From Flavobacterium aestivum (GTDB taxonomy: Bacteria > Bacteroidota > Bacteroidia > Flavobacteriales > Flavobacteriaceae), in NCBI RefSeq assembly GCF_026870175.2, contig NZ_CP113977.2:3844001-3908000 (forward strand): a DNA stretch of 64,000 nt, written 5' to 3'. Position numbers and translations under genes: made by a program. The notes under the pieces are model-generated. The model searched no databases. It worked only from the letters and a program-made list of their open reading frames with translations, and was not told the DNA's origin. Positions 1-39,287 of this stretch are shown here, piece after piece (positions within the stretch are counted from its first letter, which is position 1; every line of letters starts with the position of its first letter).

Positions 1-1515
1 ATACCAAAAACTTAGGCTACTGGAAATATTTCTCGATGCATTGAAATAAACCTGATTGTTTACCATACCGTACCATCCCCAGACATCCAGATCATCTATA
101 ACCGGAACTAATGATTTATTGTACTTGTAAAATCCTTGTAATTGTACATTCGTTTCAATAGAATTATTGTATTTCAAGAGCGTATTACCTGTAAGCTGTA
201 GTGTGTTTAAATCCATATAGCTGACCACTTTATGTGCTACAACATAATCTTCTGTAAAATTTGTCAAAGACCAAAAATTGTCTTTGGTATTCGAATATGT
301 AAAACCCAAATCATATTTTGATCTAAAAGAATATCCCAGATTTAAATTTCTTGTTGTTGATGGCTTTAAAAATGGATTCCCTAAATAATTCTCGTAAGCA
401 TGATAAATCCCTAAAGAGGGGTTTATAAATCTATATAAAGGCCTGTTGAAATACTCGGAATAAGCAAAACTTATTTTGTTTTCTTTATCAATATTATACG
501 TTGCATTTAGTGATGGAAATAATTTCAAGTATTTATCATCTATATCTTTATGAACTGTATCAGTAACATAACCGTTTATTAATGTATTTTCAAGTTTAAA
601 TCCAACCTGAAGATTCAATTTCCCAAAGCTCTTTTTGAAATCTGAAAATATAATTTGTCTGTTTTCAATGTATTTACAAATTGGTGATAAAGACAAATCC
701 TGTACATAATCTGCATCATATTTTCTAAAGTGCCTTATGTCATAATCTGATTCAATGTATATCCATTTTCCCCCAACAGTAAATTCGAATAAACTCGTAG
801 GAACGTGATACAAACCATTTAGGGTATATATATTCAGATCTGTACGTCCGTCATGATATACCGTATAATTACGATTGGGTATTCCTACACCATTTATATC
901 ATAATCCTGACCATACGTGTTTTGATTATAATCCCAAGGTCTTTGAAGCCAATCTGCTTCGATTGTTAAAAATTCATTACTCCTAAAGTCATGCCTTAAC
1001 AGAGCATTCAAAGAATTCCGTTTAAGGTTCGAAATCAATCTCTTACTCCCTATATAATATTTATCCAGTTGGTTCGAAGTATTATAGATATCTATATTCG
1101 TTTTAGTGTCTAATATATTCTCATAGGTATCATTCATTGATGAGACATCTATTTTTGTCTTTTCAGAAATCTTATATTGTACATCAATAAAGGTCACAAA
1201 ACTATTAAAGTCATAATCTGTTGTTCCTGTACCAATAAATGATAAATCAGGAAAAAAAGTACTCACATCATTTTCTCTAAAAAATTTTTCCCGCCCATAA
1301 CTTATGCTCGAATTGACTTTCCATCTTCCTCGATTGTAGACTAGATTTATGCTATTGTTAAAACTTGGAAACTTATGCTGTTTATACGCTGACTTTATTG
1401 CACCACCAAAATATTCACCTGAATCTTCTGTCTGACTTGGTTCTTTTATAGAAATGCCTGTCTGTGAAAAACATAAAAACGGAATGAACAGCAAGCAAAA
1501 TAATTTATATTTCAT
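1..1515 (-). CDS. Plug-less outer-membrane beta-barrel protein, TonB-receptor type, partial (C-terminus beyond the window)
   Basis: The frame is open from an ATG at 1515 to base 1 (505 codons, no stop), so the C-terminus lies outside the window. An in-frame stop at 1531-1533 fixes this ATG as the start. A signal peptide (MKYKLFCLLFIPFLCFS) is followed almost at once by sequence typical of the barrel part of the Bacteroidota outer-membrane-barrel family: alternating aromatic/polar strands and the landmark FNRPLYRFINPSLG near residue 370. The carboxypeptidase-like domain and plug seen in the 821-residue relative at 13571-15955 are missing, although barrel strand 1 is recognisable near residue 40. 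The gene follows the stop of the terminal NRPS by 49 bases, so it probably ends or continues the operon. A role in moving the peptide product across the outer membrane, or in self-protection, is inference. The family assignment is fairly sure, the function is not. Confidence 0.8.
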   Translation of the reverse strand, partial: MKYKLFCLLFIPFLCFSQTGISIKEPSQTEDSGEYFGGAIKSAYKQHKFPSFNNSINLVYNRGRWKVNSSISYGREKFFRENDVSTFFPDLSFIGTGTTDYDFNSFVTFIDVQYKISEKTKIDVSSMNDTYENILDTKTNIDIYNTSNQLDKYYIGSKRLISNLKRNSLNALLRHDFRSNEFLTIEADWLQRPWDYNQNTYGQDYDINGVGIPNRNYTVYHDGRTDLNIYTLNGLYHVPTSLFEFTVGGKWIYIESDYDIRHFRKYDADYVQDLSLSPICKYIENRQIIFSDFKKSFGKLNLQVGFKLENTLINGYVTDTVHKDIDDKYLKLFPSLNATYNIDKENKISFAYSEYFNRPLYRFINPSLGIYHAYENYLGNPFLKPSTTRNLNLGYSFRSKYDLGFTYSNTKDNFWSLTNFTEDYVVAHKVVSYMDLNTLQLTGNTLLKYNNSIETNVQLQGFYKYNKSLVPVIDDLDVWGWYGMVNNQVYFNASRNISSSLSFWY

Positions 1516-1564
1516 GTACAATTTGTATTTTTATTGATTATCCTTTGCAGCCTTTTCCAAGATG

Positions 1565-4500
1565 TTATTCTTGAAAAATGGCTGTAAGAATATCTTCTTT
1601 TGCAATAATTTTGTTTAATATTTTTTTATTGTGCTTCAAATTATTTCCTTCAAGCATATTTTGGTGCTCCCCTTTTCCTGTTATATAGCTAACTGTTTCA
1701 AAATTTTCTTCCCATTGTTTATTTTCATTATTTTCTGTCTTTACTAACACTAATTCGGTCGGTAATTTGTTTGTGTATTTCATATGCATCAAATAATTGA
1801 TATACCCTATTTTCTTTTCTTTTGCCTGGGCTACTATTTCCTGCATATTTTCATTGATTTCCGTTCCTAAATCAAATCCATCAGCTGATAATTCTATATT
1901 TAGTTTTTCTTCATCCAGAATTACAGAATCAAACATTATGATTCTGGATACATTTCTATTTAGCACATTTGTTAGATAGTTTGCTACGTCATATGACAGA
2001 ATCCCTCCAGCTGACCAACCAAATAAAACGATGTCACCATCTTTTTGAATTTCATTGATTGTATTAGCATAATAAGCCGCCACATTAGCTTCATTTTCCA
2101 TGAAATTGAAGGAGATGATTCTAGAATCTTCATTATTTTGAAATAAGTCCATGTATGCAGTTCCATAACCAGCTATTGGTGGAAAAGCAAATACTGTATT
2201 TTGAGAATGGCTATTTCCGTATTCATAAAAATCTTTATTCGAATCAAAAACAGTATTCAAATGGTGTTTTAATACCTCAGCAATGGCATTAAAACGAAAC
2301 AGCAAGTCCACAGGATAATTTGTTGAAAATTCTTTATTCATTCTAATTATTGCATTTATTGCCAAAATGCTATTACCTCCCAACTGAAAGAAATTATCGG
2401 TAACCCCTACTTTTTCCAGGCCTAGAATTTCTTGCCATATTCCTGCCATTTTCTTTTCAGTTTCATTTCTTGGCTCTACATATTCTGCTCTTATGATATC
2501 ATCTCCGCTAATGTTAGGAAGTGCTTTACGATCTGTTTTTCCATTAGGTGTCAATGGTAAACTATCAAGAACCACATAAAATGAAGGCACCATATATTCT
2601 GGCAACTTCCCTAAAAGATAATTTCTTATAGCTGCTTTGTCTATGTTGGCTTCACATGCATAATAGGCTACTAATACCTTTTCTGCATTTACTTCTTTTG
2701 CCTCAACAGCTACTTGTTTTATATCTTCTGAGTATTGTAAAAAGCAGGTCTCGATTTCTCCTAGTTCTATTCTGAATCCTCTTATTTTTACTTGATGGTC
2801 ATTTCTGCCCAAAAATTCAATATTCCCATCTGGCAACCATCGTCCTAAATCTCCAGTATCATACATTCTGCTACCTGATTTAAACGGATTGTCAATGAAT
2901 TTCTCTGTAGTAAGTTCTGGCTTATTCAAATAACCTCTGGATACACCTGCTCCTGATACATATATTTTACCAAACACCCCTGTTGGTACTGGTTGCAGTT
3001 TTTGATCTAAAATATATATTTGAGAGTTGGAAATTGGTTTCCCAATTGGGATCGATAGATAGTCTTTTTTCTTAATTTGAAAATATGTACTATAGGTAGT
3101 ATCCTCTGAAGGACCATATAAGTTATATACTTCTATTTGATCTAATGGCAATCTTTGTATTATGTTGTGAGATATTGGCTCTCCCGCCATATTTAAAATC
3201 CCCACTGATTCAAATGAAACTCCATTATCTAAAAGTTGATTTACTACAGATGGAACCGTATTTACTAATACATTCTTGTCTTTGTCTATATGGTTTTTAA
3301 TTTCTAAACCATTCTTTAATAGTTTTATTTTTTTACCTATTGATAGTGTATAGAATATTTCAAAAACTGATAAATCAAAACAATAAGAAGTTACCGCATA
3401 TACTGTCTCAAATTTATTAATGTCGAATTCTGCATTTGACCAATGAATTAGTGCTACTGCATTTCTATGCTCAATCATAACCCCTTTAGGATTACCTGTT
3501 GTCCCAGAAGTGTAAATGATATACGCTAAATCATTTGCCGTATTGGTTCTTTCAATATTTGATTTAGAGTACTCCTCTTGACTATTATAAAATAATTCAA
3601 GTACATTTTCGTCGATTACTATTTTACAATTACTGTCTTTCTCTATATAATCTATTCTTTCCTGAGGATATGAAGGATCTATTGGTACATAAGCAGCTCC
3701 AGACTTTAAAATACCCAAGAGTGTGATAATCATTTTCTCGCTTCGATCTAATTTGATACCTATTAAATCGTCGGTTTTGATTTTGTAATTCTCTCTTAAA
3801 TAACTGCCTAGCTGATTGGCTTGTTCATTAAGTTCTTCGTAAGTAAGTTCTTTTTCTTCAAAAACAACTGCGATATGATCCGGTGTTTTATCAACCTGAT
3901 ATTCAAACAAATCTATCATGGTTTTATCTTGCGGATATTCTGCCGAAGTATTGTTAAATTCTAACAATAATTTTGTTTCCTCTGCAATTGTTAAGTAATC
4001 TAACTCTTCTATAGATTGCTTAGGATCATAAATTACTTCATTGAATACATTTTCAAGATGACCAAATATAGAACCTATGAATAATGAGTCGTATATATCT
4101 GAATTATAATCAATGTTAAGGATTAGCTGTTCAGTTTCAACAAAAGTAAAAGTGACGTCTAACTTTGATGTTTTATTATCAAAATCAAAACCTTCTACTT
4201 CTAATCCTGTTAAAGCGGTATTGTTTGATATATTTTTTAATTGAGTTTGGTTTTGAAGCACAACTAATACATCAAACAAAGCTGAGCGACTCAAATCTCT
4301 CTTTAGATTCAGATTCCCCACCAATTCATCGAATGAATAGTCTTGGTGTTCGTAAGCATTTAAGAGTGTTTCTTTTTCTTTATTTAAAATATCTAAAAAG
4401 TCATCCCCTTGTTCAAACTTTGTTCGAATGGCTAGTGTGTTAAGATAAAGTCCGATTTGGTTTTCTAAATCTGGGTGTTCCCTCCCCGCTATAGGTGTAC

Positions 4501-7500
4501 CAATAATAATGTCATCTTGGTTGGTGTATCTGTATAGCAAAGTTTTGATACCTGCCATTAATGTCATAAACAAAGTAACATCTTGCTCTTTTGAAAAAGT
4601 TTTTAGTTTTTCTAAAAATTCACTAGAAAATTCACGTGATTTATTATCCCCATTATAAGTTTGAACCAACGGTCTTCTCTTGAAGCTAGGAAGTTCTAAT
4701 ACCGGTAATTCTCCTGTGAATTGGTTTAACCAAAATTCTTTAGACTTTTGATATTTCTCTTGCTGAATCTCTTCATTAATCCATACCGCATAATCTTTGT
4801 AATGGATGTTTAAATGTGGTAAGTCTACAGTAGTTCCTTGAAGTATTGCATTGTATGTTTTTACAACTTCCGACATTATTAGTTGCATAGACCATCCATC
4901 GCCAATTATATGATGCATGCTAAGGAAAAAGACATGCTCGTTTTCTTGTAATTTGATTAAAGAAGCTCTTAACAATGGTGCTTGTTCAAGATTAAAAGCA
5001 ATAGCATTCTGTTCCTCCAAATACTGCAAAACAGCACTTTCCTGTCTTTCTTGATTTGTAAAATCTTTTTCTGCTACTTCAAAATTAATCTCATTTGCGG
5101 GTGTTATATATTGATGTACTTTCCCCTCTGAATTGTTTCTAAAGCTTGTTCTTAATACCTCATGTCGTTGTATTAATAAACTAAATGTTTCTTTAAATTT
5201 ATCTGTATCTATATCACCTATTAGCTTTATGGCCGTAGGCATATTATAGGCCAAAGAACCTCCTTCTAACTGACTCAATATCCAAAATCTATATTGAGAA
5301 GCCGTCAAAGGATAGCTGTCCATAACAGGCGCTTGTGGTATGGCTATAAACTCATTTTGATTCAGCTCTTTGCATAGAGATTCTATTGTTGGGCTAGAGA
5401 AGAAACTCTTAAACGATACCGTTTTATTTAATTGTTTGCTTAGTCTATTAATGACTTGTGCCACAATAAGACTATGCCCGCCTAATTCGAAGAAATTATC
5501 AGTAATACCCACTTTTTCAAGACCTAGAACTTCTTGCCATATTTCTGCCATGCATTGTTCTGTCTCATTTCTTGGCTCTACATATTCTCTTCGGATAATG
5601 TCTTCTCCACTGATACTTGGTAGCGCTTTACGATCTATTTTTCCATTTGGTGTCAATGGCAAACTATCAAGAACTACAAAAAATGAAGGCACCATATATT
5701 CCGGTAACTTTCCTAAAAGATAGCTTCTTAGCGCTGCTTTGTCAATTTCAGCATTGGTTACATAATAGGCAACCAATAGTTTCTCTCCATTTACTTCTTT
5801 TGCTTGAACTACTACTTGCTTTAAATCAGATGAATACTGTAAAAGATTAGTTTCTATTTCTCCTAATTCTATTCTGAATCCTCTTATTTTTACCTGATGG
5901 TCGTTTCTGCCTAAGAACTCAATATTCCCGTCTGGCAGCCATCGCCCTACATCTCCAGTATCGTACATTTTAGTACCTGTAATAAATGGGTTTTCAATGA
6001 ACTTTTCGGCAGTGAGTTCCGGTTTATTCAAATAGCCTCGAGTCACACCTGCTCCAGATATGTATATTTTACCTGCAACTCCCAATGGTGTTGGCAACAA
6101 AGTACTATTCAGTATATACACCTGTGTATTTGAAATTGGACGACCTATACTAAATGGCATATTCTTGTTAAACAAAAATTCTATCGAAGTTACGGTAGTT
6201 TCAGTAGGCCCATATTTATTGTAAAAATCACAAATAGAACTCCAAGATTCTGCCAGTTTCTCTGGACAAATATCACCTCCTGAAAGAACTCTCTTCAAAC
6301 TAAATTTATTAGAAGGTTTTAATTTACTTACTACTGATGGTACGGAATGGAAGTGAGTAATTTTATTTTCGAAGACAAATGCATCTAATTCATTTTCATC
6401 CAATAATACTTTCCTTGGCAAAATATATAAACTCGCTCCATTCAAGAGTGCTAAGAATGTTTGCTCTACTGATGCGTCAAAAGAAAAGTTTGAAAGTTGA
6501 AGAATTCTCTCTTTTTCATCTATTTTGAACTGCTTAGTTTGCGAATTTATTAAGTTGATAACGTTTTTATGCTCCACCATCACCCCTTTTGGATTACCTG
6601 TAGTTCCAGAGGTATAAATAATATAAGCTAAATCTCCCGAAGCATTTATTTTTCCAGCATTGACAAAAGAGTATTCTTGTTTGTTTTTATCAAGTAATCC
6701 AAAAATATCCTCATCAATCACAATTTTGCAATTACTGTCTTTTTCAATATACTCTATTCTCTCTTGAGGATACGAAGAATCGATTGGTACATAAGCCGCT
6801 CCGGATTTTAATATTCCCAAAATTGCTATAATTATTTTCTCGCTTCGTTCTAGTTTTATTCCAACTAAATCACCAGATTGAATTGCATAGCTTTTTCTTA
6901 AATAGTCTGCCAGTTGATTGGCTTGCTCGTTAAGCTCTTTATAGGTAAGTTCTTTTTCCTCAAAAACAACTGCAATATTATCTGGGGCTTTTTCAAGCTG
7001 TTCTTCAAACAAATCTATGATTGTTTTTTCTTCTTGGTAATCTGCCGAAGTAGCATTAAAATCTAATACCAATTTTACTTTCTCTGAAGCGGTTAAATAA
7101 TCTAACTCTTCTATAAATTGTGTAGGATTATCGGTTCCTTCATTAAATAGATTTTCAAGATGATTGAATATAGAATCTATCAAAAATGAATCGTATATAT
7201 CCGTATTATAATTGATATTAAGAAGCAACTGCTCTGTTTCTACAAAAATAAAACTGATATCGAATTTTGATGTTTTACTCTCAAAATCAAAACCTTCTAC
7301 TTCTAATCCTGTTAAACCTGTATTGTTTGTTAAGCTTTTTAATTGAGCTTGATTTTGTAACACTATTAGCACGTCAAACAAAGCTGAACGACTCAGATCT
7401 CTCTTTAAATTCAGATTTCCTACCAATTCATCAAATGAATAATCTTGATGCTGGTAAGCGTTTAAGAGTGTTTCTTTTTCTTTATTTAAAATATCTAAAA

Positions 7501-10500
7501 AAGTATTATTCTGCTCAAACTTAGTTCGAATGGCTAGTGTATTAAGGAAAAGTCCCAGCTGATTTTCTAAATCCGGGTGTTCTCTACCTGCTATAGGCGT
7601 ACCAATAATAATATCATCTTGGTTGGTGTATCTGTACAACAAAGTTTTGATACCTGCCATTAATGTCATAAACAAAGTAACATCATGCTCTTTTGAAAAA
7701 GTTTTTAGTTTTTCTAAAAATTCGCTTGAGAATTCATATAATTTAATGGCACCATTATAGGTTTGAACCAAAGGCCTTTTCTTGAAACTAGGAAGTTCTA
7801 ATGTTGGTAATTCTCCTTTTAATTGGTTTAACCAAAACTCTTTAGACTTTTGATATTTTTCTTGTTGAATCTCTTCATTAATCCATACCGCATAATCTTT
7901 ATAATGAATGTTTAAATGTGGTAAATCGACAGTAGTTCCTTGAACTATTGCATTATATGTTTTTACAACTTCTGAAATTATTAGTTGTATAGACCATCCA
8001 TCACCAATTATATGATGCATACATAAAGAAAAAATATGCTCGTTGTCTTGTAATTTAATCAAAGAGGCTCTGATTAAAGGAGCTTGTTCCAGATTAAAAG
8101 CAATATTATTCTGTTCATGTAAATATTGTGCAACAACCACCTCTTGATCTTCTTGATTTGTGAAATCTTTTTCTGTTACCTCAAAGTTAATTTCACTTAC
8201 AGGCGTTATAAATTGACGTATTTGTCCCTCTGAATTGTTTCTAAAACTTGTTCTTAATACTTCATATCGATAGATTAATAAACTAAATGTTTCTTTAAAT
8301 TTATCTGTATCTATATCACCAATTAATTTTATAGCCGTTGGCATGTTATAAGCCAAAGAACCTCCTTCTAACTGACTCAATATCCAAAATCTATATTGAG
8401 AAGCCGTCAGGGGATAGCTATCCATAACAGGTGCCTGAGGTATTCCTTCATAATCATTTTGGCTCAAGGTTTCACACATAGCATCGATTGTGGGATTAGA
8501 AAAGAAATCCTTGAAGGATACCGTTTTGTTCAATTGCTTGTTAACCCTATTAATAACTTGCGCCACAATAAGGCTATGTCCGCCTAATTCAAAGAAATTA
8601 TCGGTAATCCCTACTTTTTCAAGACCTAGAACTTCTTGCCATATTTCGACCATTTTTTGCTCTGTCACATTTCTTGGCTCAACATATTCTCTTCGAATTA
8701 TATCTTCTCCATTAATGCTTGGTAATGCATTGCGATCCGTTTTCCCATTTGGAGTCAGTGGTATCTGTTCCAAAAGCACATAAAATGCAGGGATCATGTA
8801 GTCAGGCAACTTTGTTTGAAGGTAGTCCCTAATTTCAGCCTTGTCTATTTCGATGTCCGAAACATAATAGGCAACCAATACTTTTTCTCCATTTACTTCT
8901 TTAACCTGAACTACCACCTGCTTTAAATCAGATGAATACTGTAAAAGACTAGTCTCTATTTCCCCTAATTCAATTCTATATCCTCTTATTTTTACCTGAT
9001 GGTCATTTCTACCCAAAAATTCAATAGTACCATTCGGAAGCCAACGCCCCAAATCACCGGTATCATACATTTTAGTACCAGATATAAACGGATTGGCTAT
9101 AAATTTCTCCGACGTAAGTTCTGGCTGATTTAAATATCCTCTTGAAACACCCGCACCAGATAAATACAACTTACCACTTACGCCAATAGCAACTGGCTGT
9201 AAATTTTGATCTAATATGTAAGCTTGACTGTTTGGAATAGGTTTACCAATTGGGATTGTGGTATACTTTTCATTCTGAATATCAAAAGTTGTCGAAAAAG
9301 TTGTGTTTTCTGTAGGTCCATAACCATTTACGATTTTTATGGACGGATTACTTTCAAAAACTTTTTGGGTATGTTTTGGAGATACTACATCTCCTCCAAC
9401 AATCAATTGACTGATGCTTTCAAAAAATTTAACGTTATTCTCTACCACACTATTAAACCAAGATGCAGTCATCCAAAGACTATTAACCTTATTCGTTTTA
9501 ACGATATTTTCCAGTCTGGATAAATCAAGTAAATCATCTTGACTTGTTAGTACTAATGTTGCTCCATTTAGTAAAGTTCCAAAAAACTCTATCGTTGTGG
9601 CATCAAAGGATATTGAACCTGTACTTAGTAAAATACTATCTGTATTCAATGGGAAATAAGAACAAGGTTTTACTAATCTAATGACATTGTGATGCTCGAC
9701 CATCACTCCTTTTGGATTTCCGGTTGAACCAGATGTATAAATTATATAGACTAAATCCGATGGTGCATTTATAGGCTCTAGATTTTCTGTTTTATATCTA
9801 AATCTTTGTAAATTAAAAATCATGAGTTCATCCTCATCAATAATAGCTTTACAATTCGTGTCTTCTTCTATGTAATCTATTCTTTCCTGCGGATAATCCG
9901 AGTCAATAGGAACGTAAGCGGCTCCTGATTTTAGCACTCCTAAGATTGCAATAATCAATTGTTCGCTTCTATTTAATTTTATACCCACAAGATCATCTGG
10001 CTTGATATCGTAGTTCTCTCTTAAATAACAGGCAAATTGGTTCACTTTTTCGTTAAGCTCCTTATATGTCAATGTCGATTCCTCAAAAACAATTGCTGTA
10101 TTATTTGGTGTTTTGACAACCTGCTCTTCAAATAAATTTACAATCGTTTTATCCTTTGGGTATTCTACTGAAGTAGCATTAAAATCTACTACTAGCTGAT
10201 TTATTTCATTTGGCGATAAATAATTTATTCGTGAAATAGAAACGTTCGGTTCTGCAATAACTCCTTGCAATATCGTACCAAAATGCTCTGTTATTTTTTC
10301 TATAAATTCTATAGTATAAATATCAGTATTGAATGTTAAGTTGAGATTTAATTCATTGCCAAACTCATCAAATGTAAACTCTAAGTCGTATTTGATAAGC
10401 AGATTTTGTTTATTTTGATACTGTTGGATCGTGATGCCTTCCAGCTCTTGTGAACTACTGCCGTAACTATCCATGTTCTGTAATATTAACATAACATCAA

Positions 10501-11746: not shown

Positions 11747-11885
11747 CGCTTTATCTTATTATATACTTGTCGGTAATGATTCCCTAAATTGTTTTTAATT
11801 ACGGGTTACATAATTTTTCACAAATTCATTTTTTAGTAAAAACTTGTATTAACCCGCTTTTATCAGTGCCATCTGTGTCCCTTTT

Positions 11886-13511: not shown

Positions 13512-13570
13512 TTGAAATATTATTAATGATTTATTTTTTATTAACTGATTATTTGTTCAGCATTTCCTGA

Positions 13571-16117: not shown

Positions 16118-19100
16118 TTATATGGTGAAATTTTCAGATTCTTCAATCGAAATATTCTCTTCATTACTTGTGCTATACAATATTGTATTTTCTAAAAGCA
16201 GTGCTAATTCTTCAAGTATAATATTGTTAAACAAATCGATGATTGATAATTTGACATTAAACTGTTTATGAATTATACTAATCAATTTTGTAGCGTTCAG
16301 ACTATGCCCTCCCAACTCAAAAAAACTGTCAGTAACTCCTACTTTTTCAACTCCAAGAATTTCTTGCCATATTTCGGCTATTTTTTGCTCAATTTCATTT
16401 CTTGGTTCCACATACTCTTTTCTGATAATGTCTTCTTCATTAATGCCTCGCAAAGCGCTGCGATCAATTTTTCCGTTAGCTGTTAATGGTAAGTGTTCCA
16501 GAACCACAAGAAAGGAAGGAACCATATATTCCGGTAGTTTGGTATGGAGATAGCGGCGAATTTCTGTTTTGTCAATTACAGCGTCCGAAACATAATAAGC
16601 AACTAATGCTATCTCTCCATTTACATATTGCGGCTGAACCACAACTTGTCGTAAATGTGTCGAAAATTGCAAAAGAGTAGTTTCTATTTCTCCCAGCTCA
16701 ATTCTAAAACCTCTTATTTTTACCTGATCATCGTTTCTACCTAAAAATTCGATATTTCCGTCAGGCAACCATCTTCCTAAATCTCCGGTATCATACATTC
16801 TTGTATTTGATATGAATGGATTTTCAATAAATTTTTCGGCTGTAAGCTCCGGTTTGTTCAGATAGCCGCGGGTAACTCCGGCACCGGAAATATATATTTT
16901 ACCCAAAACGCCTAATTGAGTTGGCAGCAGGTTATTATCCAGAATATAAACCTGCGTATTTGAAATTGGTTTGCCAATACAAAATGTCTCGTTTTTATTA
17001 TAAAGAAGCTCAATCGAAGTAACTGCCGTTTCGGTTGGCCCGTATTCGTTATAAAAATCACAAACAGAACTCCATGATTCGGCTAGTTTGATAGAACAAA
17101 TGTCACCTCCCGCAATAACTCTCTTTAAATTAAAACGACTGTCTGGTACTATTTTTTCTAAAACAGACGGCACTGCATGAAGATGTGTAATTTCATTTTT
17201 CAAAATAAATTCTTCAAAAACATCCGCTTCGAGTAATACTTCTCTTGGAATAATATGCAAACTTGCTCCGTTTAAAAGCGCCAGAAAAATTTGCTCTACT
17301 GACGCATCAAAAGTGTAATTTGAAAGCTGAAGTATTTTTTCGTTTTCGTCTATTTTAAACTCTTTTGTCTGCGAAATTATCAGGTTAACTACATTCGTAT
17401 GTTCGACCATCACTCCTTTTGGATTTCCTGTGGTTCCCGAAGTGTAAATGATGTAAGCTAAATCTTTTGAACCGTTTATTTTTTCAATATTCGCATCCAG
17501 ATATTCGTGCTGATTTTTATAAAACGCTTCTAATACATCTTCATCAATTACAATTTTGCAATTGCTGTCCTTCTCTATATAATCTATTCTCTCCTGAGGG
17601 TAAGCAGGATCTATAGGCACATAAGCAGCTCCGGATTTTAGTGTACCTAAAACGGCCAAAATCATTTTTTCGCTTCGTTCGAGTTTAACTCCAATTAAAT
17701 CATCTGCTGCAATTTGATACTGATTTCTCAAATAACTTCCTAATTGATTGGCTTCTGTATTGAGTTCATTATACGTTAATTCGGTATCTTCAAAAACAAC
17801 CGCAATATTATTCGGCGTTTTTCCTACTTGTTCTTCAAATAAATCAATAAGAGTTTTATGCTCTGGAAAATCAGATTTGGTGTCGTTAAATCCGTATACG
17901 ATATCATGAAATTTAGCTTCGTTTAGAATCGAAAACTGTGAAATCTTTTTCTCAGGAACATCAACAAATTGTTCCAAAAGGTAGAAGAATGTATCCATCA
18001 TAGAATAAATAAACTCTTGGCTAAACACACCTGCTTTGTAATCCAATTCAAGTTCAATAGCATCCAATACATCAAAAAACGTAAATGACAAATTAAATCT
18101 TGAAAATGTAGAAGTTTGATTAATCTCTTCTTCAATCTCAAATGGCAGATCATTTTTACTGGCCAGTCCCGCTCTATTATTCTGATTTTGCAATACAACC
18201 ATTACATCAAAGAATGATTTTTTATTAGCTACTTTTAGATCATTTAATATCAAATCATAAGGATACACTTGATATTCTAATGCCTTCAAAATAGTATTCA
18301 TCTCATCGGCGACACAATCAGTAAAGTTTTTATCAGCATCTATTTCTGTATAAATAGGAAGGGTATTGATAAACATACCAATTGTTGACTCAAACTCTTT
18401 TTTAACTCTTCCAGAAACAGCTGTACCAATCACAAAATTTTCCTGAGCCAATCTATATAAAGATATTCTCACTGAGGAAATTAATATGCTGAATAGCGTT
18501 ACTCTGTTTTTATTGGCAAAGTCTGCCAATTTATCTTTCAGATTTTTATCAATACTAAAATTTAATCGGGAACCTTCAAAAGTTCCAACATTAGGATTTC
18601 CTAATTTTAAATTTGAATTAATATTTCTTAATTTATCTTTCCAATAGTCTGCGTATGATTCTATTTTCTCGATATGCAGGTTTTCTTTCAGCCAGTTTAG
18701 ATAATCAAAATAATCATTTTTGCTAGCTGCGCGAACATATACCTGACTCATAATTTGCTTATAAACAGACACAAAATCTTTTATAAAAACTCCTGTAGAC
18801 CAACCGTCGAATATGATGTGATGAAAAACAAATATTAACTTATAGTTGTTTTCATCAATTTGAAGTACAGATGCCTGAAACAATGGGCCAAATTCTAAAT
18901 CGAACTTAATATTTTGAATTTCGTTCTTTTTCTCTTCCCCGATAAGAGGGTCGTTATTAGAACAAAAAGTAAAAAAATGGTCAATATTTATATTCTCAAT
19001 CTCATTTATTTTCTGACGGACAGTTCCGTTCTCATCCGTAAAGAAAGTCGATCGCAGACAGGCATGCATCTTGATTAACTCGTGAAGTGTTTCTTTAAAA

Positions 19101-21676: not shown

Positions 21677-21688
21677 AGCGTTTTGTTT

Positions 21689-24600
21689 TTATATTTCGAA
21701 AAATTTCATCTCTTCTTTTTCTTCTAAGTTGGTTTCAGCTGAATCTTTATTGATAAAGGCTGCAATATCTTTAATCGAATTAAATTCAAATAAATCCGAA
21801 ATAACCATTTTATTAGGCCATAACAATTCAATCATTTTTTGCAATTTGATAAGCTGAAAAGAAGTACCTCCTAATTCAAAAAAGTTATCAGTAATTCCTA
21901 CTTTATCAATTCCCAAAATATCCTGCCAGATTGTGGCTAGTTTTTCTTCTGTTTGATTTCCTGGCGACACATATTCAGCGCGAATAAGATCATCGCCTGC
22001 TATACTTGGCAATGCTTTCCTGTCGACTTTACCGCTCGAAGTCATAGGTAAAGTCTCCAGTTCTACATAAAAACTTGGCACCATATATTCTGGAAGTTTT
22101 CCTTGTAAATAAGTGCGTATCGCGGCTTTATCTACTACAACTCCTCTTTCTAAAAGATAATAAGCAACAAGTACTTTTTCTCCGTTTAATTCTTTTGGAG
22201 TTGCTACTACCTGCTGAATATCACCATAAGCCATAACTGCATTTTCTACCTCGCCTAGTTCAATCCTGTTCCCTCTTATTTTTACCTGATTGTCAATTCT
22301 TCCCATATAATGAATCGAACCGTCAGGTTTCCATTGAGCAATATCACCGGTGCGATATACTTGATAACCCACTCTAAACGGATCGGCTATAAAACGGTCT
22401 TGGGTAAGTTCCGGAAGGTTCAAATACCCTCTGGCAACTTGTATTCCTGAGATTAGTAATTCACCAGGTACACCTAAAGGCTGTAACCCAAGCGAATTAT
22501 TAACGATATAGATACTCGTGTTGGCTATAGGTTTACCAATGCTTACACCTTCGTTTATAACATCTATTTCACTTAAATTTATGGCTGTTACGTCAATAGC
22601 TGCTTCTGTTGGGCCGTATAAATTGTGCAGTTTTGCTGTTCCGAATTTTTCCTTACATTCCTGCGCCATAAGTACTGGCAGTTCTTCACCACTGCACACA
22701 ATATGTGACAAACTGTTACATTTTTCACTGTCTGTATCCAGAAGGAATATCCCTAACATTGAAGGCACAAAATGCACTATAGAAACTTGTTTTTTACTGA
22801 TTATTTCCTGTAGATAATCAACATCTCTATGCCCTTCGGGTTTTGCAATGACAAGGGAACTTCCTGTAATAAAAGGAAGGATTAACTCCCAAACGGAAAC
22901 GTCAAATGTATAAGGTGTTTTTTGAAGAAAAACTTCGTTCTCTCCAACTTCCAAGTAGGATCTCATCCACATAAGGCGATTGTACAAACCAGCATGATGA
23001 TTTAATACGCCTTTTGGGTTTCCTGTAGATCCGGAAGTGTAAATACAATAAGCCAGATGATTCACTAAATCTCCACGCTCAATTGCTTTTGTACTGTACG
23101 AATCCTGATGTGACTTAAATTTCGTAAATTCCTGCTCATCAATATTTACTTTAAGCTTGCCATCAATTGTTATATAATCGACTCTTTCCTTCGGATAATT
23201 TACATCCATCGGGACATAAGCTCCTCCGGCTTTTAATATCCCAAAAATGGAAATTATCATTCGCTCACTTCTGTTGAGTATAATTCCAACTAAATCATCC
23301 GCTTCAATAGCATAATTTTTAGTCAGATAAGCTGCTAATTGATTGGATTGTTCATCTAACTCTTTATAAGTCAGTTTTGTTTCTTCAAATAGTATTGCAA
23401 TATTATCGGGGGTTCTTGCTGCTTGTTCTTCAAACAAATCAAGAATCGTTTTACCTTTTGGGTATTCGATTGTTGTATTGTTAAGATCATAAAGTAAACT
23501 TTGTTTCTCCAGACTTGGCAAAACAGATTCACTTTTTAAAACAGCATCGGTAGAATTTACTAAAGTAGATAAAAAGTTATTGTAGTACTCTTGCAGTCGC
23601 GCTACTGTTAATCCGTATTTCAATGTTCTTTGCTGATTCCATGATACTTTTATGCCATTTGCAACTGGACGAATATTTAAATCCAGAAAAGTATTCGTTG
23701 CTTCAAAATTGAGATCGGCAAATCTAAATTCATTTACTTTTTCATCATTCTTCACATTAAGATCATTGTAAATGTGAAAATCGATATAATTAAAATGAGT
23801 ATCAAAAAAAGGATTCTCTCCTTTTTTGTTTAATGAGAAACGGGTTTGCAATTCATTCAAGCTAATTCTTTCAAACTGTTTTTGACTGATTAGCAATTCA
23901 TTAATTTTTTCAACAAATGACAACGCAGTTCCGTTTGTTTCCTTAATTCTAAAAGGAACTGTATTTAGGAAACAGCCTAATATTTTATCTGCATCTTCCT
24001 GCAAAGGCCTGCCGTTTGTTACCATACCTACTGTTATATCGCCCTCGTAGGTTAAGGTTTTTAAAGTATATAAATAAGCTGCAAAGGCAATTGTTTTTAA
24101 ACTTAAACTATGAGTTTGGCTAAATTGTATTACCGAATCATAGAGTTCTCCGTCAATCGTAAAATCATGTCTTTTTGAAAAATTCTCCTCAGTAAAAATG
24201 TCCAGCTTTTTATACTCGCTTAAATTTTCTTTCCAAAAATCATTGTATTTATCACTCTTCTTGATACAATTTTGCTCAAAAACATAATCCTTATAGGTTA
24301 GTGCTAATTTTTCTGTGGCTATTTCTTCATTATCTAAAATAGAAAGATAAATGTTGTTCAATTCTGTCATTAATGAAGCCACACTCCATCCATCTAATAT
24401 TGCATGATGGAATTGAAAAAGAAGGCTATACTCTGTTTCGGCAGTTTTATAAATTTTCATCCTCCACAAACCTGGTTCAGATGTAACAAAAGAATTTTGA
24501 GTTCTCTCATTAACCATAAAATCATTTATTTTAGAATAAATTTCCTCCTGATTATTTGCCGACAGATCTTCATAATCTAATTTGATATCTATTTTTTCAT

Positions 24601-27600
24601 AAACAAGATGCACAGGTGTACTATACCTTTCAATATTATAGGCTGTTCTAAGTATTTCATGCTTATCGACTAAAACCGAAATAGCTTTAATAAATGATTC
24701 TTTGTCAAATTGTGAAGTTGGTAATGGAAAAACGAACTGATCGTGATATACTCCTTTACTTCGGGTTGCAATAGAACCAAAAAGCATCCCCAATTCTATA
24801 TCACTCATAGGATAAATGGAAACAATTTTTTCTTTCGAAAATGGTGTAACAACATTCAAACCTTCTGAATCTTCACTATTGGTTTCATAAAGAAATTTTC
24901 TCTCTTCATAAAACTCATATGGATTAAATTCTTTTTCTAAATTTTCAAAATAGGCTTCAACTTCAGCTTTTATTGCATTTGGAATCTCATTTTCAGTTCG
25001 TTCCGTTTCTATAGATAACAACTTTTGTATAGTAGGCAATGCATAGATATCTGCTAATTTATAATTTAGACATAGGTCTTTATTAATTCTTCCTAGAATT
25101 CGTATAGCTCGTATTGAATCACCTCCCAATTCAAAAAAGTTATCGGTAATTCCTACTTTATCAATACCCAGAATATCCTGCCAGATTGTTGCCATTTTTT
25201 CTTCTGTCTGATTCTGTGGTGATACATATTCACCTCGAATAAGATCATCTCCTGTTATATTAGGCAACGCTTTTCTGTCTACTTTACCACTGGAAGTCAT
25301 TGGTAAAGTTTCTAACTGTACATAAAAGCTTGGTACCATATAATCTGGAAGCTTTCCTTGCAAATAAGCACGTATTTCTGCTTTGTCTATTGCTATCTCT
25401 TTTTCTAAAAGATAATAAGCAACAAGAACTTTCTCTCCGTTTAGCTCTTTTGGGGTAGCCACCACTTGTTGAATGCCACCATATATCATGATGGCATTTT
25501 CTACCTCCCCTAATTCAATTCTATTACCTCTAATTTTTACTTGATTGTCAATTCTTCCCATATAACGAATGGAACCATCTGGTTGCCATTGTGCTATATC
25601 ACCAGTGCGATAAACCTGGTAATCTTTCCTAAAAGGATCGGCTATAAAACGGTCTTTTGTAAGTTCCGGCAGGTTCAAATAACCCCTAGCCACTTGTATT
25701 CCAGATATTAATAATTCTCCTGTCACACCCAAAGGTTGTAATTCGAACGAATTATTAACGATATACATACTTGTGTTTGCTATAGGTTTACCTATGCTTA
25801 CACCTTGCTGCATTACATCAACTTCGCTCAAGTTTATAGCTGTTACATCAATAGCAGCCTCTGTGGGACCATATAGATTGTGCAGTTGTGTTTTTGGGAA
25901 TTTTTCTTTGCATTCTTGCGCCATAATTGCTGGCAACTCTTCGCCACTACATACAATATGCGACAAACAATTGCATTTTTCTTTGTCTACATCCAACAAG
26001 AATACGCCTAACATTGAAGGTACAAAATGGATTATTGTAACCTGTTTTTTATTGATTACTTCTTGCAAATAAGTAGCATCCTTATGTCCTTCCGGTTTTG
26101 CTATGACCAGAGAACTTCCCGTGATAAAAGGCAAGATTAACTCCCAAACTGAAACATCAAAAGTATATGGGGTTTTTTGAAGAAAAACTTCTTTCTCTCC
26201 AACCTCTAAATACGATTTCATCCATAACAATCGGTTATACAATCCTGCATGATGATTCAATACGCCTTTTGGGTTTCCTGTAGATCCGGAAGTATAAATG
26301 CAATAAGCTAAATGATTAACTAAATTGCCTATTTGAAGCGATGCTTTACTATAAGAATTTTGATGTGATTGGAATTTCTCAAATTCATTTTCATCAATAC
26401 AAAGTTTCAGCTTGGCATCCTTTGTTATATAATCTATTCTTTCCTGAGGATAATTTACATCCATCGGGATATATGCTCCTCCCGATTTTAATATCCCAAA
26501 AATAGCAACCATCATACGCTCGCTCCTATCGAGTCTGATTCCAACTAAATCGTCTGGCTTTATGGCATAATTTTCAATCAAATAAGCTGCCAACTGATTG
26601 GATTGCTCATTTAATTCACTGTATGTTAATTCCTTTTCTTCAAATAATACTGCAATATTATTTGGAGTCTTGGCTACTTGCTCTTCGAATAAATCGATTA
26701 TTGTTTTGTCTTTCGGATAAATTACTTCGGTGTCATTAAAATCAACTAATAGTTGTTGTTTTTCTTTATCGGTTAAGTAATTTACTTTTTGAATAAGACT
26801 TTCTGGATGCTCTAATGATTCTGTAAGCAGGTTTTCTAAATGAAGAAACATTCTTTCTATCAAATGTTCTTCGTAGATATCTGTATTATACTCAATTCTA
26901 AGGTCTAACCCTTCTTTTTCAACGAAAGTAAAACTGATGTCAAATTGAGAGGTTTTATTCTTAAACTCATAATCACTTACTTCAAGACTAATAAGTTCTT
27001 CGGTATTAAGATTATTTAACTGTCCTTGATTTTGCAACACCACCAATACATCAAATAAAGCTGAACGACTGGTATCTCTCTTTAAATTCAATTTTCCCAC
27101 TAGCGCATCAAAAGGATAATTTTGATGGTCATAAGCATTTAATAAAGTTTCTTTTTGTGTGGCAACCAAATCCAAAAAGCTGCTTTCCTCTTTTAGTTGA
27201 GTTCGTATGGCAAGCGTATTCAAATACAGCCCCATTTGATTCTCTAAATCCGGATGTTCTCTTCCTGCTATTGGGGTTCCAACTATAATATCATTCTGAC
27301 CTGAATATCTATGCAACAAGGCATTTATTCCTGCCATCAAGGTCATAAATAAAGTGACATCATGCTCTTTTGAAAATGCTCTTAACTTCTCTAAAAATGC
27401 ATTTGAAAATTGATGAACCAGATTATTTCCGTTATACGTTTGCACTAACGGACGGGTTCTAAAACTTGGTAATTCTAATACTGGTAATTCTCCAGTAAAC
27501 TGATTTAACCAATACTGTTCTGATGTTTTATATTTTTCTTCTTGTAATTCCTGATTAAGCCATACCGCATAATCTTTATACTGAATGCCTAATTCAGGTA

Positions 27601-30568
27601 AATTAGTTTTACCTCCTTGTGTTAATGCATTGTATGTTTTTACAACCTCAGCAATCAATAACTCTATTGACCATCCATCACCAATGATATGATGTAAGGA
27701 TAAGAAAAATACATACTCATCTTGGCTTAACTTGATTAATGAAGCTCTTACAAGTGGCGCGTTTTCTAAATCAAAAGGTTGACTATTTTTATCCTGTAAA
27801 TAATTAGCTATCTCATCTTTCTTGTTTTCAACTGAACTATAATCTTTCTCAGATATCTTAAAGTTTATTTGTTCAGCTGGTGTAATATATTGCTGAATTT
27901 CTCCTTCTGCATTCGTTTTAAAATAGGTTCTTAAAATCTCATGACGATGCATTAATAGTCTAAACGATTCTTCAAATTTTTGAGCATCAACCGTTCCTGT
28001 CAATTTAACCGTTGCCGGCATATTATAGGCTATAGAACCTCCGTCTAACTGGCTCAATATCCATAGCCTGTTTTGTGCTGCTGTTAACGGATAAGATGCT
28101 GCTACTGGAGCTTTAGGTATTGCCAAATAATCATTCTCCTGTAATTGTTTGGCTAATCCTTCTATGCTCGGGTTTGTGAAAAACACTTTAAAAGATACCG
28201 TTTTCCCTAATTGCTTATGGGTTCTATTAATTACTTGAGCAATAATTAAACTATGTCCTCCTAACTCAAAAAAGTTATCTGTTATCCCTATTCTTTCTAT
28301 CCCTAATACTTCTTGCCATATGGCTACTAAGCTTTTTTCTACTTCATTTCTTGGAGCGACATACGCTCTTCTTATAATATCATCACCTGTGATACCTGGA
28401 AGCGTTTTTCTATCTATTTTTCCGTTTGGAGTTAATGGCAGTTTTTCTAATGCTACATAAAATCCTGGAACCATATAATCAGGTAGTCTGTTTTGCAGAA
28501 AATTTCGCAATTCAGATTTATCCACTTGTTTAGTAGCTACCAAATAAGCTACTAATACTTTCTCCTGGTTGTTTTCTTTTACCTCAACAACTACTTGTTT
28601 TAAATCTTCTGAAAACTGTGATATTGTATTTTCTATTTCTCCCAGCTCTATTCTGTACCCTCTTATCTTTACCTGATGGTCTTTTCTGCCCAAAAACTCA
28701 ATATCTCCGTTTGCTAACCAACAGCCTAAATCACCTGTATCATACATACGCTCTCCTTCTTGAAAAGGATTAGCAACGAACTTTTCGGAAGTAAGTTCCG
28801 GCTTGTTTAAATATCCTCTGGCTACGCCTGATCCCGATACATATATTTTTCCTGCAACTCCTATTGGTAAAAGTTGTAATGCATCGTCTAATATGTAAAT
28901 CTTAGTATTTGATATTGGTCTCCCAATTGGAATAACTGGCTTATCAAAATCATTTTTGGATACCTTATAAATCGACACACAAACGGCACATTCCGTAGGT
29001 CCATAGGCGTTATAATACTCAATTCCGGATTCTACAACTGCTATTGCTTTAGTTGGATTAGCAGATTCTCCAGCCGTAATGATACATCTCAATCCTGAAA
29101 TATCTTTTTCGGACAATAATCCTAAATAACTTGGAGGAAAAGTGACTACTGATGCTTTTATTTCTTTTAAGAAACCTATAAATTGATCTTTGTCTTTTAT
29201 TATTTCATCTGTTGGAATGCATAATGTAGCCCCACTATACAAACTCATCATAATCTCAGATATAGATGCATCAAAAGCTACTGAAGCAAACCATACAATC
29301 TTGTCATCATTGCTAATTCCAAATGATTCAATCTGATCCAAAGACATGTTTATATTACTCGTATGCTCTATCATTACCCCTTTTGGTTGCCCTGTAGAAC
29401 CCGATGTATAAATCACATATGCTAAATCTTTAGGCGAAATAGACCTATTTATATTCTCACTACTATTTGCATCAATGTTTATTGTGCTTAGATCAATTGT
29501 CTCGCAATTATCTATATCTAATGCAGCACTGTCACAAATTATTAGTTTTAAACCACTGTCATTTATTAAATAATCAATTCTTTCTTGTGGATAATTGGTG
29601 TCTATGGGCAGATAAACTGCTCCTAACTTTAATATTGCCAATAACGAAACGATTCCAATATCTGATTTAGGTAAAAACACTCCAATTATGTCCCCTGTAT
29701 TGATGGTATGTTGGGAAGAAATATAATTGGCTAACTGATTTGCTTTTTCGTTTAATATCGAATAGGTTAAATTCGATTCTCCAAATACAACTGCAACATT
29801 ATTTGGTGTTTTTGCAACTTGTTCTTCAAATAAATCAACTATCGTTTTTTCTTTCGGATATGCTACAGCTGTATTATTAAAATCTACTAATAATTGATGC
29901 TTTTCTTTTTCAGATAGTAGCTCATAATCCGATAAGTTTGGTGTTATATTATTTTCTAAATTAACTATAAACTGTTTAAAATACTTAACCAAATACTCTA
30001 CGATTCCTTTCTTTACAAAATCTTCTAAATAAGAAACGTGAATTTCTAAATCCTCATTCTCATTTATTCTTATATTAAGCAAAATACCATGACAATCTAA
30101 ATTCCTTTCTGAATTGACCCCAATACTGTAATTTGACAGAGTGTTTAAATCATTAAAACTTATCTTTCCAGATAAATCATCATTGTTATAGTCTGAATAT
30201 TTTAATGACTCTAAAATTTCATCTTTTACCTTTTGAAGATATTCTTTAAAAGATATATTTAAGTCTATAGGAAATGATTGGAGTAAAGAATTGCATTGAT
30301 CTTTATAATCTGAAACGACATAACCGTCAAATTCATTAATCAGTTTTTTTAACAAAAAAGAATAAATAGCACTTATAACTGTAGCTTGAGCTATTAAATT
30401 ACTATTTGTAAGCTTATTGAAATAGCTTAGTTCATCGGCCTTAATAGTAACACATGAAAGATTATTTTGTCTATCCTGTAGCCCAATAACCCTCTCCCTG
30501 TTTAGTACTTTTTTCTTCCAATATTTTGAAACTAAACTAAAATTATTTGTCACTTCACTCTTATCCAT
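21689..30568 (-). CDS. Three-module NRPS that starts the line (truncated C-A-PCP-C-A-PCP-C-A-PCP)
   Basis: The ATG at 30568 is preferred over an in-frame TTG at 30577; it gives 2959 residues. Residues 1 to about 225 look like only the second half of a condensation domain and have no HHxxxDG, so this should be the loading end. The A domains have complete cores. Pocket codes read by eye are DASTIAAVCK for A1 (very close to a known Tyr code) and DVWHVSLIDK for both A2 and A3 (one change from the classic Ser code). PCPs lie near 768 (LGGHS), 1811 (LGGDS) and 2898 (LGGTS). C2 has HHIIGDG near 961; C3 has HHAILDG near 2056 and starts with YPMSDIELGML, unlike the other C domains here. No E domain exists. 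The protein ends soon after its last PCP, consistent with passing the chain to the KS of the next gene. Predicted contribution: Tyr-Ser-Ser. Confidence 0.93.
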   Translation of the reverse strand: MDKSEVTNNFSLVSKYWKKKVLNRERVIGLQDRQNNLSCVTIKADELSYFNKLTNSNLIAQATVISAIYSFLLKKLINEFDGYVVSDYKDQCNSLLQSFPIDLNISFKEYLQKVKDEILESLKYSDYNNDDLSGKISFNDLNTLSNYSIGVNSERNLDCHGILLNIRINENEDLEIHVSYLEDFVKKGIVEYLVKYFKQFIVNLENNITPNLSDYELLSEKEKHQLLVDFNNTAVAYPKEKTIVDLFEEQVAKTPNNVAVVFGESNLTYSILNEKANQLANYISSQHTINTGDIIGVFLPKSDIGIVSLLAILKLGAVYLPIDTNYPQERIDYLINDSGLKLIICDSAALDIDNCETIDLSTINIDANSSENINRSISPKDLAYVIYTSGSTGQPKGVMIEHTSNINMSLDQIESFGISNDDKIVWFASVAFDASISEIMMSLYSGATLCIPTDEIIKDKDQFIGFLKEIKASVVTFPPSYLGLLSEKDISGLRCIITAGESANPTKAIAVVESGIEYYNAYGPTECAVCVSIYKVSKNDFDKPVIPIGRPISNTKIYILDDALQLLPIGVAGKIYVSGSGVARGYLNKPELTSEKFVANPFQEGERMYDTGDLGCWLANGDIEFLGRKDHQVKIRGYRIELGEIENTISQFSEDLKQVVVEVKENNQEKVLVAYLVATKQVDKSELRNFLQNRLPDYMVPGFYVALEKLPLTPNGKIDRKTLPGITGDDIIRRAYVAPRNEVEKSLVAIWQEVLGIERIGITDNFFELGGHSLIIAQVINRTHKQLGKTVSFKVFFTNPSIEGLAKQLQENDYLAIPKAPVAASYPLTAAQNRLWILSQLDGGSIAYNMPATVKLTGTVDAQKFEESFRLLMHRHEILRTYFKTNAEGEIQQYITPAEQINFKISEKDYSSVENKKDEIANYLQDKNSQPFDLENAPLVRASLIKLSQDEYVFFLSLHHIIGDGWSIELLIAEVVKTYNALTQGGKTNLPELGIQYKDYAVWLNQELQEEKYKTSEQYWLNQFTGELPVLELPSFRTRPLVQTYNGNNLVHQFSNAFLEKLRAFSKEHDVTLFMTLMAGINALLHRYSGQNDIIVGTPIAGREHPDLENQMGLYLNTLAIRTQLKEESSFLDLVATQKETLLNAYDHQNYPFDALVGKLNLKRDTSRSALFDVLVVLQNQGQLNNLNTEELISLEVSDYEFKNKTSQFDISFTFVEKEGLDLRIEYNTDIYEEHLIERMFLHLENLLTESLEHPESLIQKVNYLTDKEKQQLLVDFNDTEVIYPKDKTIIDLFEEQVAKTPNNIAVLFEEKELTYSELNEQSNQLAAYLIENYAIKPDDLVGIRLDRSERMMVAIFGILKSGGAYIPMDVNYPQERIDYITKDAKLKLCIDENEFEKFQSHQNSYSKASLQIGNLVNHLAYCIYTSGSTGNPKGVLNHHAGLYNRLLWMKSYLEVGEKEVFLQKTPYTFDVSVWELILPFITGSSLVIAKPEGHKDATYLQEVINKKQVTIIHFVPSMLGVFLLDVDKEKCNCLSHIVCSGEELPAIMAQECKEKFPKTQLHNLYGPTEAAIDVTAINLSEVDVMQQGVSIGKPIANTSMYIVNNSFELQPLGVTGELLISGIQVARGYLNLPELTKDRFIADPFRKDYQVYRTGDIAQWQPDGSIRYMGRIDNQVKIRGNRIELGEVENAIMIYGGIQQVVATPKELNGEKVLVAYYLLEKEIAIDKAEIRAYLQGKLPDYMVPSFYVQLETLPMTSSGKVDRKALPNITGDDLIRGEYVSPQNQTEEKMATIWQDILGIDKVGITDNFFELGGDSIRAIRILGRINKDLCLNYKLADIYALPTIQKLLSIETERTENEIPNAIKAEVEAYFENLEKEFNPYEFYEERKFLYETNSEDSEGLNVVTPFSKEKIVSIYPMSDIELGMLFGSIATRSKGVYHDQFVFPLPTSQFDKESFIKAISVLVDKHEILRTAYNIERYSTPVHLVYEKIDIKLDYEDLSANNQEEIYSKINDFMVNERTQNSFVTSEPGLWRMKIYKTAETEYSLLFQFHHAILDGWSVASLMTELNNIYLSILDNEEIATEKLALTYKDYVFEQNCIKKSDKYNDFWKENLSEYKKLDIFTEENFSKRHDFTIDGELYDSVIQFSQTHSLSLKTIAFAAYLYTLKTLTYEGDITVGMVTNGRPLQEDADKILGCFLNTVPFRIKETNGTALSFVEKINELLISQKQFERISLNELQTRFSLNKKGENPFFDTHFNYIDFHIYNDLNVKNDEKVNEFRFADLNFEATNTFLDLNIRPVANGIKVSWNQQRTLKYGLTVARLQEYYNNFLSTLVNSTDAVLKSESVLPSLEKQSLLYDLNNTTIEYPKGKTILDLFEEQAARTPDNIAILFEETKLTYKELDEQSNQLAAYLTKNYAIEADDLVGIILNRSERMIISIFGILKAGGAYVPMDVNYPKERVDYITIDGKLKVNIDEQEFTKFKSHQDSYSTKAIERGDLVNHLAYCIYTSGSTGNPKGVLNHHAGLYNRLMWMRSYLEVGENEVFLQKTPYTFDVSVWELILPFITGSSLVIAKPEGHRDVDYLQEIISKKQVSIVHFVPSMLGIFLLDTDSEKCNSLSHIVCSGEELPVLMAQECKEKFGTAKLHNLYGPTEAAIDVTAINLSEIDVINEGVSIGKPIANTSIYIVNNSLGLQPLGVPGELLISGIQVARGYLNLPELTQDRFIADPFRVGYQVYRTGDIAQWKPDGSIHYMGRIDNQVKIRGNRIELGEVENAVMAYGDIQQVVATPKELNGEKVLVAYYLLERGVVVDKAAIRTYLQGKLPEYMVPSFYVELETLPMTSSGKVDRKALPSIAGDDLIRAEYVSPGNQTEEKLATIWQDILGIDKVGITDNFFELGGTSFQLIKLQKMIELLWPNKMVISDLFEFNSIKDIAAFINKDSAETNLEEKEEMKFFEI

Positions 30569-31348: not shown

Positions 31349-31377
31349 AATTAGTATTGTATGAAATTGGACAAAAA

Positions 31378-39274: not shown

Positions 39275-39287
39275 GATCGTCTATTTT

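Follow-up and report, generated by a model that had tools for sequence, protein, structure and literature searches.

To our knowledge, little is known about how the products of hybrid NRPS-PKS clusters of Flavobacterium leave the cell through the outer membrane. One cluster of this class, BGC298, is said to have been first reported by Carrion et al. in 2019. The available parts of the literature link BGC298 to the suppression of Rhizoctonia in sugar beet and report an NRPS-PKS cluster of a Flavobacterium to be essential for disease suppression (PMC7762793, PMC7912845, PMC13211072). The locus presented here resembles BGC298, as described, in genus and in the hybrid NRPS-PKS class. Such clusters are common in the genus, with 41 genus-specific PKS/NRPS hybrid families given in the accessible text (PMC10734526). 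The crpABC cluster for cryopeptin in Pedobacter shares with our locus a CmlA-family protein encoded beside the NRPS genes, Val modules and the lack of a predicted epimerization domain; it differs in that two NRPS genes make a lipopentapeptide and in that no ketosynthase (KS) or barrel genes are named in the accessible part of the report (PMC12181424). CmlA-type hydroxylation is already known in Bacteroidota from the chitinopeptin clusters of Chitinophaga, which also have an ABC transporter and a peptidase gene in common with our locus but contain embedded E domains and a peptidase of the S8 type. The available text names a PKS module only for C. niastensis, at the start of a 16-module line (PMC9248904). 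Oar-type TonB-dependent transporters, used for secretion in Myxococcus (PopC), are barrels with a CarboxypepD-type extension and a suggested part in secretion, and in this they resemble a barrel of our locus; according to the accessible text Oar needs its plug and TonB box, whereas the second barrel described below, OMPb, has no plug (PMC6434023).

We analyzed a stretch of 64,000 nucleotides of the Flavobacterium aestivum genome, here called the window, which corresponds to positions 3844001-3908000 of a complete single contig of 4.58 Mb. As shown in Table 1, window positions 1-30577 contain six ORFs on the minus strand, comprising two NRPS genes, a ketosynthase-NRPS gene, a CmlA-type hydroxylase gene and two barrel genes, with gaps of 12-162 nt. 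This agrees with a preliminary description of the window as a hybrid NRPS/PKS line of six same-strand genes with short gaps, and its count of seven A domains, one KS, one thioesterase (TE), one beta-hydroxylase (a CmlA_N plus lactamase-fold protein) and two barrels (OMP_b-brl_3) was borne out by Pfam and by our own HMMs. The view that these six genes form a full line did not hold. Comparison with related Flavobacterium genomes revealed 11 genes in about 40.4 kb (genome positions 3874568 to 3834180, minus strand) in the order NRPS1, KS-NRPS, OMPa, CmlA, NRPS2, OMPb, TEII, ABC, NRPS3, PPTase and TAP-like peptidase, including a further NRPS with a Gly module. The window edge (base 1) splits the OMPb gene, and five whole genes lie beyond it; the gaps from OMPb onward are -8 to 77 nt and are followed by one of 547 nt. 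The phosphopantetheinyl transferase (PPTase) and the inner-membrane exporter, listed previously as missing parts to be sought elsewhere or beyond base 1, are indeed encoded beyond base 1 together with TEII, whereas MbtH, named in the same list, was not detected in the whole genome (PF03621). The PPTase family gave three matches in the genome (PF01648), the best of which is the one in the operon. The short gaps and the conserved order suggest that the 11 genes are a single operon.

Table 1. Features of the operon in the window (strand: -, minus). Residues in parentheses are predictions; X, residue without assignment.
Feature	Window positions	Strand	Description
NRPS1	21689..30568	-	Partial C (no HHxxxDG) - A(Tyr/Phe) - T - C - A(Ser) - T - C - A(Ser) - T; orthologues 80-82% identical
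KS-NRPS	16118..21676	-	KS - vestigial AT/docking region - T - C - A(X, DAEHIGEVTK) - T; KS Cys-His-His intact; no GHSxG-type AT motif
Putative AT-relic region	19577..20206	-	About 210 aa between KS linker and YPF motif; conserved, without AT catalytic motif
OMPa	13571..15955	-	794-aa TonB-transporter-like protein: CarboxypepD extension, plug, barrel
CmlA-type non-heme diiron beta-hydroxylase	11886..13511	-	Motifs HNHQDH, GEHSDL, AADS
NRPS2	1565..11746	-	TubC docking - C - A(Val) - T - C - A(X, DAEHLGKVTK) - T - C - A(Ala) - T - TE
OMPb	1..1515 (window part)	-	Plugless TonB-transporter-like barrel; 600 aa in all from ATG; gene end at genome position 3843713

F. aestivum, genome G107 and F. circumlabens, the three genomes that were read end to end, share the set of 11 genes and their order. 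The A-domain codes agree across these three, the sole deviation noted being the Gly code of F. circumlabens (DILQMGMIWK, one letter off). F. sp. LC2016-23, F. sp. ENC and F. cupreum show a matching order in two pieces each, from the end of NRPS1 to NRPS2 and from the end of NRPS2 to the start of the ABC gene. A related line on contig C8 of genome G189 consists of an NRPS gene cut by the contig start, KS-NRPS, OMPa, NRPS2, OMPb, a small extra gene, TEII, ABC, NRPS3, PPTase and the peptidase gene, without CmlA. In this genome the aromatic loading module is a separate gene of 838 aa on contig C17, where further NRPS and KS genes follow, and export genes like those of F. aestivum seem to be joined to a longer hybrid line. 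Several more KS-carrier genes and Thr and Ser modules were seen beside the loading module on C17 (L179/L180). Genome G195 also lacks CmlA; one of its contigs carries the part from the end of NRPS2 to the peptidase gene, and two more carry pieces of the first half. Pairwise dN/dS ratios (Nei-Gojobori, own script) of the 11 genes against two genomes were 0.02-0.26 in all 22 comparisons, as under purifying selection; the values are rough because dS was about 0.65-1.7. Since order, codes and frames are kept in other genomes and dN/dS is in this range, a chance origin of the line is excluded.

A sigma-70 scan gave 97 sites compared with 95.0 in shuffled sequences and a terminator scan 5 compared with 8.5, and since these counts are near those of shuffled sequence, neither scan was informative. 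A Flavobacterium-type promoter motif had no minus-strand match ahead of NRPS1; three matches lie within genes of the line (21126, 14236 and 6731) and could be chance or internal starts. Upstream of NRPS1 lies a divergent response-regulator gene (window 31357-32052, PF00072), a 79% homologue of which stands two genes before the loading module in G189. This gene was considered as a cluster regulator and dropped, no homologue being present upstream in the stretches of G107 (10.2 kb) or F. circumlabens (4.9 kb). Elsewhere in the window (37343-46730 and 52009-59763) are genes for two secreted proteins of very large size and repetitive sequence; each has a PorP/SprF-like gene beside it, and by eye the two loci resemble those of gliding adhesins.

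A second NRPS region lies outside the window, downstream of base 1 (genome 3755768-3830442). It contains 17 A domains, six of which are nearly identical and share the code DAKQVALVLK, and its own CmlA relative. FAAL-, TauD-, KamA-, carbamoyltransferase-, TEII- and ABC-like genes were recognized there by eye or BLAST only. In close relatives the region is on other contigs. The three PF01648 matches do not include an ORF of 116 aa in this region (genome 3805186-3805536) that looks by eye like a truncated phosphopantetheinyl transferase. Between the two NRPS regions, at genome positions 3833123-3833632, a 169-aa protein with a NusG domain is encoded (PF02357, 58.4 bits), which is possibly a specialized antiterminator; the stretches compared in G107 and F. 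circumlabens contained no homologue.

The A-domain codes were taken from a MAFFT alignment with a GrsA core sequence, and the residue names are predictions by the general code tables. In NRPS1 we found DASTIAAVCK (Tyr/Phe) and twice DVWHVSLIDK (Ser), in the KS protein DAEHIGEVTK (X), and in NRPS2 DAIWIGGTFK (Val), DAEHLGKVTK (X) and DLFNNALTYK (Ala). These codes agree with the order Tyr-Ser-Ser-(C2)-X-Val/Ile-X-Ala given in the preliminary description, to which one residue, Gly, is probably to be added: NRPS3, beyond base 1, has the domain order C-A(Gly)-T-C in all five genomes in which it was read. The leading C domain of NRPS1, which starts at 30568 if the ATG used by the G107 and F. circumlabens orthologues is taken, is a fragment without HHxxxDG in F. 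aestivum (by eye) and in these two genomes. Because NRPS1's own C domain is such a fragment, the terminal C domain of NRPS3 could serve NRPS1, which would put Gly first. As predicted from these modules, the chain is likely Gly-aromatic-Ser-Ser-(C2)-X-Val-X-Ala, a residue order for which we know of no matching compound. The DAEH-type codes (X) had no match in the open-licence literature searched, and two Pedobacter loci (L076, L090) stop short of a usable anchor for X. Of the full-length C domains, the one that separates the two Ser modules gave the weakest match (210.7 bits); it follows a T domain with LGGDS, a combination that may point to a dual C/E or D-accepting type.

C, A and T modules and a KS with a carrier protein occur together in one co-directional line, as in hybrid NRPS-PKS systems. 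The Cys, His and His residues of the KS are kept in eight of eight orthologues, and the AT motif is present in none of these eight; Pfam found no AT domain in the F. aestivum KS protein. The line has no functional AT in cis, as in trans-AT PKSs, and the conserved region between KS linker and YPF motif may be an AT relic or a docking platform. Among solved structures, the KS comes closest to modular PKS KSs, and its top matches include 7zma, PksL and PksJ; we take PksL and PksJ to be trans-AT PKSs. The second hallmark of this class, a dedicated trans-acting AT, was not found: for the acyltransferase expected to be encoded elsewhere, there is only one Acyl_transf_1 match in the whole genome, a frame of 313 aa far off at 1493974, which is presumably FabD.

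The hydroxylase combines a CmlA_N domain (PF18456, 310.7 bits) with a metallo-lactamase-fold diiron domain carrying HxHxDH and belongs to the CmlA family, as had been proposed for an in-line CmlA hydroxylase. Its best solved match is 8a90, a 'non-heme diiron monooxygenase' (439 bits versus 352 for CmlA), and the four best matches outside the F. aestivum genome, 93-94% identical, are from F. sp. LC2016-23, F. sp. ENC, F. cupreum and F. circumlabens. No copies were seen in a scan of viral contigs, and plasmid matches comprised 12 records, all below 60% identity and with no Flavobacterium among the genera named. By family membership, the enzyme probably acts on a T-bound residue. CmlA_N is absent from the whole genomes of both G189 and G195, and G107 has a single CmlA_N gene. 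The CmlA-less G189 retains the module for aromatic loading, but at the place of DAIWIGGTFK in clusters with CmlA its code is DAIFMGGTLK; for this reason we favor Val as the target, with rather less than even confidence. According to the accessible text, hydroxylation of Val is a proposed rather than a demonstrated role of a CmlA relative in Pedobacter (PMC12181424), and 3-hydroxyvaline is present in pedopeptins according to the available part of another report (PMC7947920). Against Val, this support comes mainly from one genome, G189, whose code DAIFMGGTLK may still stand for an aliphatic residue, be it Val or another. In addition, other Flavobacterium loci have CmlA relatives of 80-86% identity that adjoin Asn, Gly, His-like, Thr or X codes. 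In G195, no Val code was present in the NRPS2 modules read, the line being broken by contig ends so that the module position could not be matched. The aromatic residue, though a possible target, was rejected as the first choice, the same aromatic code being found in the loading-module gene on contig C17 of G189, a genome without CmlA.

The two outer-membrane barrels of the preliminary description are both present. The second, whose gene runs past the window edge, differs from ordinary TonB receptors in that it has no plug. For OMPa, the start was moved to Met28 of the ORF, the start of close orthologues. Its structural model shows an extension (residues 19-97), a plug-like domain (115-216) and a barrel from residue 223, that is, a plug in a transporter barrel, although the plug family PF07715 scored 19.1 bits, below the cut-off of 23.9. 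Nine of 80 hydroxylase loci had an OMPa-like gene in the stretch fetched, in each case with a plug; OMPb is too far from CmlA to show in these stretches. OMPa and OMPb co-occur in eight of eight genomes seen, in G195 on different contigs.

OMPb consists of a signal peptide (by eye), about 20 residues and a transporter-type barrel (PF14905, 200.9 bits), a layout kept in all eight aligned orthologues. Neither a plug with TonB box nor an N-terminal extension is present in any of these eight. With our own barrel and plug HMMs, the plug model was unmatched in all four OMPb orthologues among loci L130-L159, and each of the other 26 loci, some cut by contig ends, has a protein with a plug match. In a sample of 299 Flavobacterium genomes, OMPb orthologues (41-100% identity) occurred in four including F. 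aestivum, and the next matches listed had at most 28% identity and frames of mostly 770-850 aa. A phylum sample of 395 genomes contained two with an orthologue, F. aestivum and LC2016-23, and two more matches of 27% with frames of 791 and 796 aa. Among 64 listed PF14905 matches from 21 genomes that covered the full profile (start at or before position 8, end at or after 406), OMPb was the sole frame below 699 aa. Short ORFs without a signal peptide in genomes G194 and G242, the one in G194 adjoining an ORF that carries a plug, are probably broken genes. The structural model of OMPb, which covers residues 1-507, the last 95 being left out at the window edge, shows a barrel with residues 1-34 disordered (pLDDT 80; alignment of 11 rows, 10 of them OMPa-type barrels of 17-21% identity), and its own N-terminus forms no plug. 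The 50 PDB matches listed for the model are all TonB-dependent transporters by title (E from 1.5e-8), with poor superpositions (TM by query 0.36-0.56, rmsd 8.5-21.0). In eight of eight genomes OMPb is preceded by the TE-NRPS and followed by the TEII-ABC pair; in G189 a small additional gene comes before TEII. From these features we infer that OMPb may be an outer-membrane exit pore. In the open-licence literature searched, neither a natural plugless TonB barrel nor a barrel in such an NRPS cluster was found described, and we think that the plugless barrel is the most interesting point of the operon.

The ABC protein scores 301.7 bits against a cut-off of 286.2 for TIGR01194, the family of cyclic-peptide ABC exporters. 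The last gene, which is terminal in five of five lines, encodes a TAP/Hip1-like alpha/beta hydrolase with a signal peptide (by eye), a GVSYG motif, matches to PF00561/PF08386 and four C-terminal hydrophobic windows, two of them overlapping. We presume a likeness to prodrug peptidases of the ClbP type in that it is a likely periplasmic serine hydrolase with C-terminal membrane segments encoded at the end of an NRPS/PKS operon; it differs from them in its TAP/Hip1 alpha/beta hydrolase fold and in these four windows.

On balance, we favor the reading that the 11-gene operon serves the assembly, export and maturation of one nonribosomal peptide, which would contain a single C2 unit. NRPS3 would start the chain with Gly, perhaps acylated, and its last C domain would serve the A-T loading module of NRPS1, a chain order that presupposes docking. 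NRPS1 would add the aromatic residue and two Ser residues, and the KS protein a C2 unit from malonyl-ACP loaded in trans, probably by FabD; as no KR was recognized, this unit would be a beta-keto unit. X, Val, X and Ala would follow, CmlA would hydroxylate a T-bound residue and the TE would free the peptide. The cyclic-peptide ABC exporter would carry the product to the periplasm, where the membrane-anchored TAP-like peptidase would trim it or take off a protecting N-terminus. OMPb would then pass it through the outer membrane, and OMPa, with its plug, might be a receptor or a gated partner. Inner-membrane export, periplasmic trimming and exit through OMPb would be the simplest reading of these genes. 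A plugless barrel is not automatically an exporter, as seen with Oar of Myxococcus, for which the available text states that a plugless form failed to secrete and a form without plug and extension failed to accumulate (PMC6434023). It is with considerable reserve that we suggest that a TonB importer was turned into a dedicated exit pore for a nonribosomal peptide by loss of plug and extension, acting in series with the ABC exporter and an activating membrane-anchored peptidase.

A tentative alternative keeps the assembly line as described but gives OMPb another role, as a barrel for self-protection, as a decoy or as a structural partner to OMPa. The place of OMPb in what is likely an antibiotic operon and its constant company with OMPa are consistent with such roles, but its location between the TE-NRPS and the TEII-ABC pair in all eight genomes fits transport. 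An iron-chelating peptide, with OMPa as its receptor and the exporter and peptidase as PvdE-like and maturation parts, would account for a TonB-type OMPa, an exporter of the cyclic-peptide family and a likely periplasmic hydrolase. We consider such a siderophore unlikely, as the scans recognized no catechol, hydroxamate or Asp-hydroxylating gene among the 11 genes and as OMPb, having neither plug nor TonB box, could not be driven by TonB in the usual way.

Formally, a product running from Tyr to Ala would be complete within the window, since NRPS1 opens with an A-T loading module after the C fragment and NRPS2 has a TE. A six-gene hybrid operon that starts at Tyr and ends at the window edge, with its helper functions scattered in the genome, is nevertheless quite improbable: OMPb, TEII, ABC, NRPS3, PPTase and the peptidase continue the line at gaps of -8 to 77 nt, and the downstream genes accompany it in G107 and F. 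circumlabens and in the related lines of G189 and G195. We give very little credence to a single pathway of about 110 kb formed by the window operon and the neighboring region with 17 A domains; the two are adjacent on the same strand and both have CmlA-, TEII- and ABC-like genes, but G107 has the window operon with a single CmlA_N gene, and the draft genomes of LC2016-23, ENC and F. circumlabens have the two regions on different contigs. Decay of the OMPb gene with loss of its plug is hardly credible in spite of the probably broken relatives in G194 and G242 and of one TAA noted in the stretch matched in the G107 search, as OMPb retains a signal peptide and a full barrel, has dN/dS ratios of 0.086 and 0.101, is kept down to 41-50% identity, and has an open 601-aa ORF in G107.

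For the favored reading of an 11-gene operon, the operon ends and the prediction Gly-aromatic-Ser-Ser-C2-X-Val-X-Ala provide masses to seek. A conserved, intact plugless transporter barrel encoded in the operon is a deletable gene for a direct test of the exit route. If the exit pore suggested for OMPb is real, it would represent a peptide export route without TolC.
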